NCBI RefSeq assembly: GCF_000243155.2
Contig: NC_018017.1
Span: 930,001 to 994,000 of the forward strand
Length of the DNA stretch: 64,000 nucleotides
Direction of reading: 5' to 3'
Origin: Desulfitobacterium dehalogenans ATCC 51507
Lineage (GTDB): Bacteria > Bacillota > Desulfitobacteriia > Desulfitobacteriales > Desulfitobacteriaceae
Each line of letters opens with the position of its first letter. The first letter of the stretch is position 1. Below the pieces are notes generated by a model that saw nothing but the letters and a program-made list of their open reading frames with translations, had not been told where the DNA came from and did no database searches. Shown here piece after piece: positions 19,325-49,778 of the stretch. A program made the translations under genes and the position numbers.

Positions 19325-19623
19325 TTATAAATACGCCGAAGAGGAATAGTAAGTTTTATCTAAGCGCCTAGAGAGCTGTTGGTTGGTGTAAAACAGCGGC
19401 AAAGATGGAGCTGAACTCACCTCGGAGTAGCTCGCTGAAATGGTAAAGAGTAGGTGGAGCCGGATCCTAACCGTTATAGTAGGGGGATATAAGGTCGGAA
19501 ATCTCTTTGAAGATAGTGGACCCGTATCTGTGAGAGCATGCTTTGGGCATGAATGAGAGTGGTACCGCGTAAGATGTTAAAATCTTTCGTCTCTATAGGT
19601 TATAGAGATGAAAGATTTTTTTA
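19325..19623 (+). ncRNA. T-box leader, leucine-type, upstream of the LeuA-like gene
   Basis: This is a tRNA-sensing leader that lets transcription continue when uncharged tRNA is high. Visible parts are the stem I elements AGAGAGC and TGTAAAACAGC and a candidate specifier CTC (Leu) at 19416-19418 in the context GAACTCA. The T-box sequence AGAGTGGTACCGCG is at 19556-19569. A terminator stem at about 19579-19623 (AATCTTTC pairing with GAAAGATT) has a T-run. The CTC specifier matches a leucine biosynthetic gene downstream. Specifier assignment is by eye. Confidence 0.9.
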
Positions 19624-45877: not shown

Positions 45878-46939
45878 TTACTCCAGAATGGACTCGATAA
45901 AAAGAGTGCGCTTCTCCACGAGATTGTATTCTTTCGCTTGGACATTGGAAAGCTCGTCGTCGGCGACTAAAACCCTGACGATGGGGCGCATGGGCAGACT
46001 CTTATTTTGATCGACGATGATACCTGTTTCTCCGGTACTCAGTTTAACGGTACAGCCCGTGGGATATGCGGCAATATGTTTAAGAAACGTGATCACCAGA
46101 TCCTTAGAGAAAAATTTCTCTGCGCTACCCATAAGAATTTCACAGGCTTCATGGGGCGGGATGCGGGTATGTCCTGGGCCGTCATTCACTAAATTATCAT
46201 AGAAGTTAGCAATGCCTACAATCTGTGCCCACTGATGAACGGCATCTCCCTCCAGTTTACGGGGATAGCCGTTGCCATTGAGACGCTCATGGTGCTGGAA
46301 GGCAATATGGGCGCTCAATAAATTCAGTTCCCGTTTTGTTCTGAGTATATCGAAGCCGTGATTGGTGTGAGTTTGGTAAAGCTCCGCTTCCTCAGGAGTA
46401 AAGGGCTCTCGCTTATTTAACAGCTTCTTGGGCAATTTCACGGTGCCGATATCATGAAATAAGGCACCGATGGCTAATCCTTCCAGACTTTCCCGCTCCA
46501 GGCCTAAGGCCTTACCCAGTACAGTGGAGAGAACACATACATTGACGGAATGTGCAAAAATTTGATTGTCATAGGTCCTCATATCCGCTAATCCGATGAA
46601 GATATCCTTTTGGAAAAGGACATCCTGAATGATGTTGTCAATGTTCTTTTTTACATTAAAGCCATCAAAGTCTTTTCCTACTTTCACAGCTTGTACGGCA
46701 TTATCCAGGGACGCCATGGCCTCACGCCGATGTTCTTCGGAGATAACATCCTCCACCACGATATCCTTACTTTCCTCGTCGTCAATATAGAGAATGCTGA
46801 TACCAAGGGTTTTCAAACGTTCTATATAAGACTTGGTCAGAGACATTCCTCTTCCCAGGAGTACACGACCGTCATTGGTATAGATGGTTCGCCCCAGGAT
46901 ATCTCCTTCTTGAAGCCTGTTTATACTTAACTGACGCAT
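45878..46939 (-). CDS. HD-GYP domain protein, likely c-di-GMP phosphodiesterase
   Basis: HD-GYP enzymes hydrolyse cyclic di-GMP. The 353-residue protein has an N-terminal region typical of clostridial HD-GYP proteins (about 1-110). The HD-GYP domain has HSVNVCVLS, FHDIGTVKLPK and the HHERLNGNGYP signature (near residues 225-235). A C-terminal PilZ-like or beta-rich tail follows. The GYP motif is GYP in this copy, so it appears active. The ATG at 46939 is chosen because AAAGGAAG lies 9 bases upstream. The transcript is led by a c-di-GMP-I riboswitch at 47028-47150, so the enzyme is controlled by its own substrate. Confidence 0.92.
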   Translation of the reverse strand: MRQLSINRLQEGDILGRTIYTNDGRVLLGRGMSLTKSYIERLKTLGISILYIDDEESKDIVVEDVISEEHRREAMASLDNAVQAVKVGKDFDGFNVKKNIDNIIQDVLFQKDIFIGLADMRTYDNQIFAHSVNVCVLSTVLGKALGLERESLEGLAIGALFHDIGTVKLPKKLLNKREPFTPEEAELYQTHTNHGFDILRTKRELNLLSAHIAFQHHERLNGNGYPRKLEGDAVHQWAQIVGIANFYDNLVNDGPGHTRIPPHEACEILMGSAEKFFSKDLVITFLKHIAAYPTGCTVKLSTGETGIIVDQNKSLPMRPIVRVLVADDELSNVQAKEYNLVEKRTLFIESILE

Positions 46940-47027
46940 TGAATTGTTCTTCCTTTCAAACTTATCTTCATAGATCAAATTTATAAAGAGGGGATCAATT
47001 TATAAAAAAGGGATATAAAATTAAAAA

Positions 47028-47150
47028 TCGCCATGTGAACTGGCGACAAAGTAGTTTAAAGCTTAAGGCTTCGGTGGCTTGGCAATCATCAGGCATGTCC
47101 TGGAAGACCCATAGCTTTGCGTCCTTGGCTTTCGCCAAGTTTGCTATTGT
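47028..47150 (-). ncRNA. c-di-GMP-I (GEMM) riboswitch with intrinsic terminator
   Basis: On the minus strand, the motifs GCAAAC (47139-47144), GGCGAAAGCC, GACGCAAAGC (47114-47123) and a distal TGATGATTGCC stretch match the conserved core of the c-di-GMP-I class. A terminator stem TCGCCA/TGGCGA (47028-47046) with a following T-run stands between the aptamer and the HD-GYP gene. Ligand binding would be expected to switch terminator formation. Whether it turns the gene on or off is not clear from sequence alone. Bases 47170-47186 carry an ATACATA/TATGTAT palindrome near the likely promoter. Confidence 0.88.
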
Positions 47151-47363
47151 CGACACTAAAGTGCAGGCTATACATATTTTATGTATCTAAAGTATAAGTT
47201 TTTTTATCACTCATCCTATTATAAATGTTAAGTTTTAGCTTCACAACATCTTCTCGCCCAAATGGGGAATTTTAAATAATAGGGTACATCCTCTATGAAT
47301 CACGGAATATCTATGTTAGAATAGTCAGAATAGTTTATCTTTAAAGCGTTGAGGTGAAAAGAA

Positions 47364-48335
47364 ATGATTCGTGAAGTTTATCCCCAAATTTATTTAAATG
47401 AAGTTCCATTGCCGAAAAATCCACTGAAGGCATTAAATAGCTATATTATCCTTTCCGAAGACCGTCCCCTGATTTTTGATACGGGGTTTAATAAGGAAGA
47501 GTGTAAAAAGGCTCTTATGGAAGGGATTGCTGCATCAGGCATTGATCTTAAACGGACAGATTTAGTGCTGACCCATATGCATATCGACCATTCCGGACTG
47601 GCCGACTATCTATGGAAACAAGGGTGTAAGGTCTATATCGGGAAGAAAGATGGCACCCTGCTGAATAACTTCAGAACTTCTCCTGAACTTGTGCTGAACC
47701 ATCTGAGTGAGGGCCTTAATTTGAAACAAGGAATCGGGATAAAGGAGATAGAAGCCTTCGATATAGCTCCTAAGGAGCCTTTTGAATACACTCCACTGCA
47801 AGAAGGGGACTGTTTGGAGGTGGGGCCCTATCAATTCGAAGTTATCGATATTCCTGGTCATAGCCCAGGGCACATAGGTCTGTACGAAAGAAAGCATAAG
47901 CTGTTTTTCGGCGGGGATCATATTCTTAATGAGATAACTCCCAATATTACCTTTTGGCACTACAAAATCGATAGTCTGGGAAACTTTATTGAAAGCCTGA
48001 ACAAGATTCGCCAGTTTGATATTGATTGGGTGTTTCCAGCTCATCGCAGCCTTATTCGAAACCACCGGCAACGAATTGACGAATTGATAGCTCATCACCA
48101 GGAACGACTCGAGGAAATCACCGGGATTCTGTGTGATGGTAAAAAAACCGTTATGGAGACAGCTGCAAGAATGCGCTGGGATTTGAACTATAAGAGCTGG
48201 AATGATTTTCCCCTAACCCAAAAGTGGTTTGCCTCTGGCGAAGCCATGGCTCATCTGGAGCATCTGGTGTATAAAGGAGAGGCCCAGCGAGTGAGTTTCG
48301 ATGGGAAGCATAACTATGAATTGGTTAATCCGTGA
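47364..48335 (+). CDS. Metallo-beta-lactamase-fold hydrolase (copy 2)
   Basis: This 323-residue paralogue of the gene at 21436 is the same length and highly similar. It has the zinc motif THMHIDHSG, IPGHSPGHIGLY, FFGGDHIL and FPAHRSL, so the metal site is complete. GAGGTGAAAAG precedes the ATG. The upstream regions share a TAGAAT -10-like box followed by CAGAAT (TAGAAT at 47317-47322 here and 21402-21407 there), suggesting that the promoter was duplicated with the gene. The substrate is unknown. Confidence 0.87.
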   Translation: MIREVYPQIYLNEVPLPKNPLKALNSYIILSEDRPLIFDTGFNKEECKKALMEGIAASGIDLKRTDLVLTHMHIDHSGLADYLWKQGCKVYIGKKDGTLLNNFRTSPELVLNHLSEGLNLKQGIGIKEIEAFDIAPKEPFEYTPLQEGDCLEVGPYQFEVIDIPGHSPGHIGLYERKHKLFFGGDHILNEITPNITFWHYKIDSLGNFIESLNKIRQFDIDWVFPAHRSLIRNHRQRIDELIAHHQERLEEITGILCDGKKTVMETAARMRWDLNYKSWNDFPLTQKWFASGEAMAHLEHLVYKGEAQRVSFDGKHNYELVNP

Positions 48336-48372
48336 TAAAGGGAATTACTTCAGAGGGAGTTTGGACAAATAA

Positions 48373-48413
48373 AGTTAGCCCGCCGGTTCTCAAAGGGAAT
48401 TGGCGGGCTAACT
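48373..48413 (+). terminator. Terminator after the second MBL gene
   Basis: AGTTAGCCCGCC (48373-48384) and GGCGGGCTAACT (48402-48413) form a perfect 12-bp stem; the T-run after it is short. Confidence 0.8.
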
Positions 48414-48462
48414 GTTTGAGCACATTTTATGTACTTGGAAAAAATCTGAAAGCTAATTCTCC

Positions 48463-48753
48463 AGGATTTTGCTTTACACTGGTCGCTAGATAAGCTGCGC
48501 AGACAAAACTAACGCTCAAGCTCTTCGCTCCGAAAGGTACACCTGCGCCGCTAAGTCTTCTCTGTGGCAGGCGGCTTGGGCGAAACCCTCGCCCGGGTTT
48601 CGTGGCCAAATTGCTCCTCGAAAGCACTGCTTTCGCACTTGTTCTCAATAGCCGGTTGGAAACGTCCTGTTTCCAACCTTTCTCCGCTGCGTGCTTTCGC
48701 GAAGTTTTGTTTCCGCTCGCTTAAATTCGCTCACTCTTGTAAAGCAAAATCCT
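48463..48753. repeat. Structured non-coding block, module 1
   Basis: AGGATTTTGCTTTACA (48463-48478) is repeated in exact inverted form at 48738-48753, enclosing 259 bases. Inside are further perfect hairpins: CGAAACCC/GGGTTTCG (48581-48602), CGAAAGC/GCTTTCG (48619-48635) and GGTTGGAAAC/GTTTCCAACC (48654-48678). No supported gene is present. The layout suggests a large structured RNA or a palindrome-rich element. No class is recognised. Confidence 0.7.
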
Positions 48754-48814
48754 TGGGCTGTCTTTCGGGTTTGAGCGGCGCGTTGTAGGATACGCTACCA
48801 GACCCGAGCAAAGG

Positions 48815-48860
48815 TTTTCATCATCTGCCGCCCCGCGGCATGGCCGGCAGATGATGAAAA
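48815..48860. repeat. Structured non-coding block, module 2 (long hairpin)
   Basis: TTTTCATCATCTGCCG (48815-48830) and CGGCAGATGATGAAAA (48845-48860) form a perfect 16-bp stem with a 14-base loop. GACCCGAGCAA just before it (48801-48811) recurs at 49076-49086 in direct orientation. Confidence 0.75.
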
Positions 48861-48892
48861 AGACCCCAGAAAAGACACGAAAAGACCCGCAA

Positions 48893-49075
48893 GCGTAGCT
48901 TTACGCACAAAAGCGAACGGATTTAGCGGAGGGGCGGTCGGGTCAATGTCGCTTTCTTAACGTAGCGAAGCCGCCGGTTCACATCAGGTATTACCCAGAG
49001 GTTTGGCGTAGCTGTTAAGAAAGCGAGTTGACCAGCCCTGGAGCTATGGAGTAAGCGTTGTGCGTAAAGCTACGC
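48893..49075. repeat. Structured non-coding block, module 3
   Basis: GCGTAGCTTTACGCACAA (48893-48910) is exactly inverted at 49058-49075. Nested inside, TCGCTTTCTTAAC (48949-48961) is inverted at 49014-49026, extended by GGTCAA/TTGACC. The whole 48336-49131 stretch holds no supported coding gene. Confidence 0.75.
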
Positions 49076-49131
49076 GACCCGAGCAAGCGTTTTTTCATCC
49101 TCTGCTGGTGCTGCGCCAGCGGCATAGCCGT

Positions 49132-49581
49132 CTACTCCTCAATAAGAACCTTAATGACATCTTTTCGACTGATGATTCCGATCATTTTTCCGTCCTCCAT
49201 GATGGGCAATCGTTTCACATTATGCTTGATCATCAGAGAGGCGGCTTCCTCAATAGTAGCGTCTTTATTAAGGGTTATAACCTCTTGAGTCATAATCTCC
49301 GAGGCTTTGAGGGCAACTAATTTTTTTAGATCAGATTCATATTGCTTGACTCCACGGTAATAGATCAGAGCACCCAAGAATCCCACCGCTTCAGGAACCC
49401 GAGGGTTGGTTTCTTTATGAAGCAGGTCGCCTTCGCTGACAATACCAATTAAATTGCCGAAAAAGTCGAGGACTGGAACCCCGGAAATATGATGGTCACA
49501 TAGTAGCTTAGCGATTTCTCTAATCTCGGTATTCGGTGAAATTGTAATAACATTAGTCTTCATAATATCCTGAACCTTCAT
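49132..49581 (-). CDS. CBS-domain pair protein
   Basis: The 149-residue protein is a tandem pair of CBS domains, which bind adenine nucleotides or similar ligands. Domain 1 has VQDIMKTNVITISPNTEI and HISGVPVLD; domain 2 has ASEIMTQEVITLNKDATI and HNVKRLPIMEDGK. The ATG at 49581 is chosen because GGGGGT lies 8 bases upstream; an upstream in-frame extension has no site. It is monocistronic. The partner, if any, is not adjacent, so its regulatory target is unknown. Confidence 0.88.
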   Translation of the reverse strand: MKVQDIMKTNVITISPNTEIREIAKLLCDHHISGVPVLDFFGNLIGIVSEGDLLHKETNPRVPEAVGFLGALIYYRGVKQYESDLKKLVALKASEIMTQEVITLNKDATIEEAASLMIKHNVKRLPIMEDGKMIGIISRKDVIKVLIEE

Positions 49582-49778
49582 TGCTAATACCCCCTTGACA
49601 ATTACCTTGGGACATATTTTGTCTGAATTTAGTACTAGTATACCACGATTTTGACAAGAACAAATGAGGTAATCTGGTAAAAAAGGAAATAACAATCTTT
49701 CATAGAATTCTTAGACAAGAATTTTTTCTCATCTTTTACGAATTACTGCCTATATTTAAGGTGAAAGGATGGGGTGCT

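Follow-up and report, generated by a model that had tools for sequence, protein, structure and literature searches.

A multicopy mobile element with two head-to-head structured units in Desulfitobacterium dehalogenans and its relatives

The window analysed here is a stretch of 64,000 nucleotides (nt) of Desulfitobacterium dehalogenans ATCC 51507, that is, bases 930001-994000 of its single-contig genome of 4,321,753 bp (G000); positions are those of the window unless stated otherwise. Between an upstream gene (47364-48335, + strand) and the 3' end of a CBS-domain gene (49132-49695, - strand) lie 796 bases, 48336-49131, which an earlier reading of the letters (the original prediction) had described as gene-free and built from nested inverted repeats, and had tentatively taken for either a repetitive, non-autonomous element of the genome or a large structured RNA of no known class. 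Most of this region is a single insertion that holds two structured units, A and B, together with palindromes resembling repetitive extragenic palindromes (REP), here called H (Table 1). The insertion belongs to an interspersed multicopy family with an empty site in a sister species, recent copies in Paradesulfitobacterium, and a conserved fold.

Structure of the locus

The three frames of perfect inverted repeats described earlier (16, 16 and 18 bases) were recovered where they had been placed, as was the direct repeat of GACCCGAGCAA (48801-48811 and 49076-49086), which is part of a longer 39-nt direct repeat (48780-48818 and 49055-49093, 77% identity). The density of perfect stems is indeed beyond that of normal intergenic DNA: inverted-repeat pairs of 16 bases occur five times in the 796 bases and those of 12 bases twenty times, whereas 12-base pairs were present in 3 of 300 dinucleotide shuffles, with a maximum of 2. 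The region is also gene-free, its internal open reading frames (ORFs) being just 73-76 amino acids (aa) long and unsupported.

What did not hold is the unity of the region. The fold z-score of the whole region against shuffles (-9.0 on the plus strand) would suit a single structured RNA of about 800 nt, but the minus strand folds almost equally well (-8.2), and high stability on both strands is expected of palindromes and is, on its own, no evidence for RNA. Further, the first ~100 bases (48336-48438) are the 3' region of the upstream gene and are kept at the empty site of the sister species, and A and B fold separately, are placed on opposite strands by their homology, and are found elsewhere singly or variously combined. 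We regard one 800-nt RNA as hardly credible; the part of that proposal that survives is the presence of structured units with strong covariation and without a match in Rfam 15. Similarly, the three modules exist, but they (A, the hairpin in the middle, and B) are separate from one another and are combined differently in other copies.

Table 1. Features of the insertion and its left flank (positions in the window; model matches in genome positions)
Feature	Position	Strand	Remarks
Terminator-like hairpin of the upstream gene	48373-48413	+	inverted repeat; host sequence, also at the empty site of the sister genome G002
Whole insertion, 693 bp	48439-49131	.	missing at the orthologous G002 site (alignment with G002 contig C3, ~66622-66769)
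Unit A, structured	48460-48753	-	closed by 16-bp stem; model R2 match 978460-978752, 182.9 bits
Closing stem of A	48463-48478/48738-48753		perfect inverted repeat, 16 bases
Optional plug-in region of A	48540-48643	-	missing from short A copies
Remnant resembling the 3' end of a B-type unit, located between A and H1	48780-48818	+	first of the two copies of the 39-nt repeat
H1, REP-like palindrome between A and B	48815-48860	.	inverted repeat
Middle palindrome stem	48815-48833/48842-48860		19 bases at 95%, perfect 16-base core
Unit B, structured	48893-49075	+	closed by 18-bp stem; model R1 match 978911-979058, 144.6 bits
Closing stem of B	48893-48910/49058-49075		perfect inverted repeat, 18 bases
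Most conserved motif of B, around GGTTCACATCAGGTATTACCCAGAGGTTT	48975-49008	+	invariant columns in the 25-unit alignment
H2, REP-like palindrome at the right end	49091-49131	.	truncated at the insertion boundary

Within this one element, A (minus strand) and B (plus strand) stand head-to-head. Copies elsewhere carry A then B in the same order, or either unit alone, and the A-only and B-only copies have the same ends: on the left a sequence like TGAAAAAGACC (31 of 51 A and 45 of 50 B copies), on the right CGACCCGGACAAGC-TTTTCATCC, after which some copies have palindrome H. Hence, A sits inverted within the same shell. The remnant between A and H1 is shell sequence that includes GACCCGAGCAA, and it is also found after A in other copies (in the right shells of A-only copies). 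With up to 2 mismatches allowed, the H2 consensus has 31 matches in the genome, most of which lie at A/B loci, and its reversed control has 0; H-like palindromes flank units in relatives too. With regard to miniature inverted-repeat transposable elements (MITEs), which have the short terminal inverted repeats of a known transposon, many copies have terminal ends like TGAAAAAG/CTTTTTCA, for which no parent transposon was identified. Copies of A fall into length classes of about 205-216, 237-240, 277-279 and 296-304 nt.

The plug-in region (also seen at L059, L045, L110, L123 and L139) consists of a CGAAA hairpin followed by CAAGCCGC...AGAG...CUU..CGGCG and, by eye, looks common to A units, to inserts of B units elsewhere, and to a stand-alone stretch of Desulfosporosinus. 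It may represent a separate mobile RNA domain.

Copies, empty sites and mobility

The search for further copies was productive; the counts given here come from scored listings and should be read as lower bounds. The 796-base query matched at least 74 pieces of the genome including itself, mostly at 75-95% identity, and queries with B (48880-49085) and A (48448-48770) found at least about 40 copies each. When up to 2 mismatches are allowed, there are 137 occurrences of the 18-base arm GCGTAGCTTTACGCACAA vs. 1 of the reversed control. Covariance models, as the original prediction had proposed, matched many units as well: the model of B (R1) gave 71 genome matches, the two weakest being short or partial (i.e., about 70 B units), and the model of A (R2) gave 89, of which at least 74, above 110 bits, are A units. 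Taken together, there are about 145 structured units in a single 4.3-Mb genome, on the order of 1% of its sequence, none of which is recognised by Rfam 15.

At the orthologous site of the sister species (G002), the terminator is followed by TATGTAATTGG, GCAAAGAACGG and the CTACTC of the CBS gene, whereas D. dehalogenans reads TATGTACTTGG, 693 bp and then CTACTC, so that the right end of the insertion abuts native sequence at the 3' end of that gene. A B-only copy (L034) has a clean empty site too. The family is thus multicopy in the genome and has an empty site in the sister genome, and the proposal of a non-autonomous repetitive element was correct in this respect.

Almost all of the 60 loci examined are intergenic, and divergent promoter regions are rare among them (3 of 54 classified loci). 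Such placement would suit a host cis-acting repeat (e.g., for transcript ends, mRNA stability, or chromosome organisation in the manner of bacterial interspersed mosaic elements, BIMEs) that was spread by an old mobile element. Orientation relative to the neighbouring genes is, however, random (++ 22, -- 21, +- 8, -+ 3 among the classified loci), the sister species lacks a copy at the focal site, and the conserved core is much more elaborate than a terminator or a REP; we consider a cis-acting role improbable.

The nearest relatives of the B copies of D. dehalogenans share at most 94.5% identity (median 92%) and hence, judged by sequence divergence, the copies of this genome look immobile today. 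Copies also decay by recombination, given that L083 is an A unit in D. dehalogenans and an A/B chimera in G002; at L032, the A unit has collapsed to its closing stem. Paradesulfitobacterium ferrireducens (G011), in turn, has 17 copies with exactly equal score (98.1 bits), and its copies of equal length have many different flanks and are bounded by variable (CTGANNN)n heptads, which indicates that the family was recently mobile in this species. The heptanucleotide arrays (CTGANNN / NNNTCAG) that border the recent copies, L105-L159, may be products of slippage or part of the insertion process.

Covariation and the folded strand

The structure of B was assessed in an alignment of 25 B-type units drawn from several genera, among them Desulfitobacterium and Desulfosporosinus. 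Over 29 base pairs, 94.8% of cells pair, both sides have changed in 24 of the 29, and the covariation score is 0.634, as opposed to 0.07-0.10 with slid partners and 0.22 with shuffling; the most conserved part is the loop GGTTCACATCAGGTATTACCC(N)RAGGTTT. In the alignment of A (20 units, 63 pairs), both sides have changed in 18 pairs, and copies swap whole helix blocks in a compensated manner (e.g., CGAAAGG/CCTTTC vs. CGTCGGG/CCCGAC). That is, the conserved relatives that the original prediction depended on do exist, and compensatory changes keep the stems across genera. A pseudoknot GAACC/GGTTC considered for B was set aside, its columns being nearly invariant and hence without covariation support.

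A genuine helix accepts G-U on the strand that pairs, and such a cell appears as A-C on the opposite strand. Counting these cells only in helices able to fold in both strands gave, for the sense strand of B, 27 G-U vs. 5 A-C cells (34 copies), and 16 vs. 5 in a diverse set, as would be expected for RNA.

The consensus of A (minus strand) aligns to that of B (plus strand) with a score of 103.5 vs. 75.4 +- 6.2 for shuffled sequences, while A in plus orientation scores 62. Consistently, the A model (R2) finds three B units in the sense orientation of B, those of L001, L034 and L044 (E 1e-10 to 8e-7), and also matches a distant unit, L164 (E 1e-4). Judged by these alignments, A and B are homologous, and the element is made of two homologous units head-to-head.

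Distribution and other features

A search with R1 found units in 10 of 299 genomes sampled across the phylum, with most matches in the family of D. dehalogenans itself; multicopy sets beyond this family were found in one genome of the same class (G148, 8) and one of another family (G265, 6). Within Desulfitobacteriaceae, unit counts were 109 (G027), 53 (G020), 47 (P. ferrireducens), 37 (G002), 23 (G009) and 8 (G003). An exact core pattern matched 55 stretches of other genomes, which belong to Desulfosporosinus, Paradesulfitobacterium, Gracilibacter and related assemblies, and none in IMG/VR. A phage or plasmid origin was rejected: a distant search with the B unit of the window found no phage match and, among plasmids, nothing beyond an H-like piece on one of Alicyclobacillus. 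No Rfam 15 family scored beyond chance level over the element, even at E up to 5, nor on its relatives, which bears out the earlier impression that no known class was recognisable, and the published literature that we searched held no description of these repeats. Hence, the element appears, from the sequence comparisons, to carry an uncatalogued and widespread structured RNA family present in several spore-forming groups.

A mobile, multicopy and ornate RNA with plug-in domains might also be a remnant, or a non-coding satellite, of a known RNA-bearing element (a group I/II intron, an IscB/TnpB omega-RNA (HEARO), or a retron), and stand-alone omega-RNAs have been reported (PMC9581776). HEARO was suspected from the core motif and dismissed, since its model, RF02033, has no match in G000; group I/II introns (catalytic core, domain V), the T-box and other Rfam families likewise have no match at the element. 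In the copies examined, we saw no linked nuclease gene and no internal ORF, neighbourhoods not having been protein-searched (e.g., for iscB/isrB). Given that neither the element nor its relatives match Rfam, and that RF02033 matches occur in G002 and not in G000, we view such a derivation as very unlikely. The G002 matches are HEARO-like RNAs at L101-L103 (58-72 bits, below the gathering score) that are unrelated to the element.

Elsewhere in the window, a c-di-GMP-I-GGC riboswitch (RF03167, 61.8 bits) lies at 47069-47154 (-), upstream of an ORF at 45878-46978 (-) that, by eye, encodes an HD-GYP protein, and a T-box leader (RF00230, 124.7 bits) lies at 19327-19597 (+).

Discussion

The comparisons above establish the mobility of the family and the conservation of its fold. 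Our results further make it probable that 48439-49131 is one copy of an old Desulfitobacteriaceae family of non-autonomous mobile elements that carry structured RNA as cargo and are mobilised in trans. Under this model, unit B would be read outward (plus) and the inverted unit A on the minus strand, one or both inside shared shells, and a unit would be transcribed by read-through from outside, as no promoter was found inside the element. The RNA would be the cargo of the element and may serve as the scaffold of a ribonucleoprotein with a protein encoded elsewhere, a complex that would be needed for the spread of the element itself rather than for a neighbouring gene. Insertion would depend on an enzyme supplied in trans, perhaps a single-strand transposase of the Y1/REP type that recognises the H/CTAC end.

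H and the CTAC junction pointed clearly to such a transposase at first; the end of H is in many cases CTAY, although not in all copies. REP-associated tyrosine transposases (RAYTs) were nevertheless discarded as the mobiliser after a survey of PF01797 and of 16 RAYT/Y1 loci, none with an adjoining H. The single REP-type transposase of P. ferrireducens (216 aa), which adjoins a gene read as comM/yifB, remains a candidate mobiliser. In several relatives (L227, L230, L231, L235), a REP-type transposase gene lies directly upstream of a gene read as comM/yifB, which suggests a fixed, perhaps domesticated, position.

Several observations weigh against our model. With respect to the enzyme, none that could mobilise the element was found: no H lies near any of the 16 PF01797 loci examined, the RAYT genes of relatives examined in full are flanked by palindromes other than H, and PF01797 genes are absent from G003 and G009, both of which have units. 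With respect to insertion, no clear target-site duplication, as would be expected of a MITE, is visible at the focal locus or at L034, both of which have a clean empty site, the G002 site holds 11 other bases (GCAAAGAACGG) between TTGG and CTACTC, and H, searched as a loose pattern, follows just 22 of 53 B units. With respect to RNA, there is no sigma-70-like promoter in 48300-49200, the unbiased orientation means that many copies would be read antisense by their neighbours, and the strand evidence for A is weak and only suggestive (9 G-U vs. 5 A-C cells on the minus strand).

Alternatively, the folds might act as single-stranded DNA, that is, as recombination or transposition substrates comparable to REP/RAYT ends, IS200/IS605 ends, or the attC sites of integrons. 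In line with this alternative, the palindromes are REP-like and in many copies have a CTAC (GTAG) foot, the right junction adjoins native CTACTC, an internal promoter is lacking and the orientation to genes is unbiased; folded DNA tolerates G-T pairs too, so the G-U asymmetry is compatible with it. However, relative to shared ends, A folds on one strand and B on the other, and a single strand-specific transposition event does not need both; the fold is therefore more likely to be cargo than a strand-specific transposition intermediate. Further, B has no replication-strand bias (20 of 40; none that is robust for A), the units resemble RNA in having a long invariant motif in the loop and peripheral domains that can be exchanged, and the missing RAYTs of G003/G009 and the RAYT flanks devoid of H speak against this alternative as well. 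Hence, we find action as single-stranded DNA unlikely and favor the model of a mobile element with RNA cargo.

A more specific version of the favored model is that these are undescribed self-spreading structured RNAs of Bacillota, with two homologous ornate RNAs placed head-to-head in a REP-ended element and working with a protein encoded elsewhere. We offer this version only tentatively, as a possibility that is rather less likely to be right than wrong. If the RNAs do aid their own spread, they would constitute a new RNA-dependent mobile system, much of whose parts list is already defined; even as passive cargo, they are a class that is missing from the annotation of Desulfitobacterium, Desulfosporosinus and their relatives.

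Among known systems, HEARO, the omega-RNA of IscB (RF02033), is comparable as an ornate RNA that is present in many copies and is carried along by mobile elements, but the present element has no sequence or model match to it and no evident guide region. REP/BIME sequences and their RAYTs resemble the element in their intergenic palindromes (in the element, with a GTAG/CTAC foot in part of the copies), their palindrome-spacer-palindrome arrays and their non-autonomous nature; here, in contrast, the “spacer” is a large covarying structured unit. Finally, bcr1 (of the Bacillus cereus group), ERIC, BOX/RUP and NEMIS are small non-coding interspersed repeats with a mobile history and a predicted RNA structure that has been kept, and in these respects are like the element. 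Unlike them, the element described here has two homologous units inverted in one shell, a multi-domain fold of ~150-300 nt with plug-in domains, and a B core that is found in several bacterial families.
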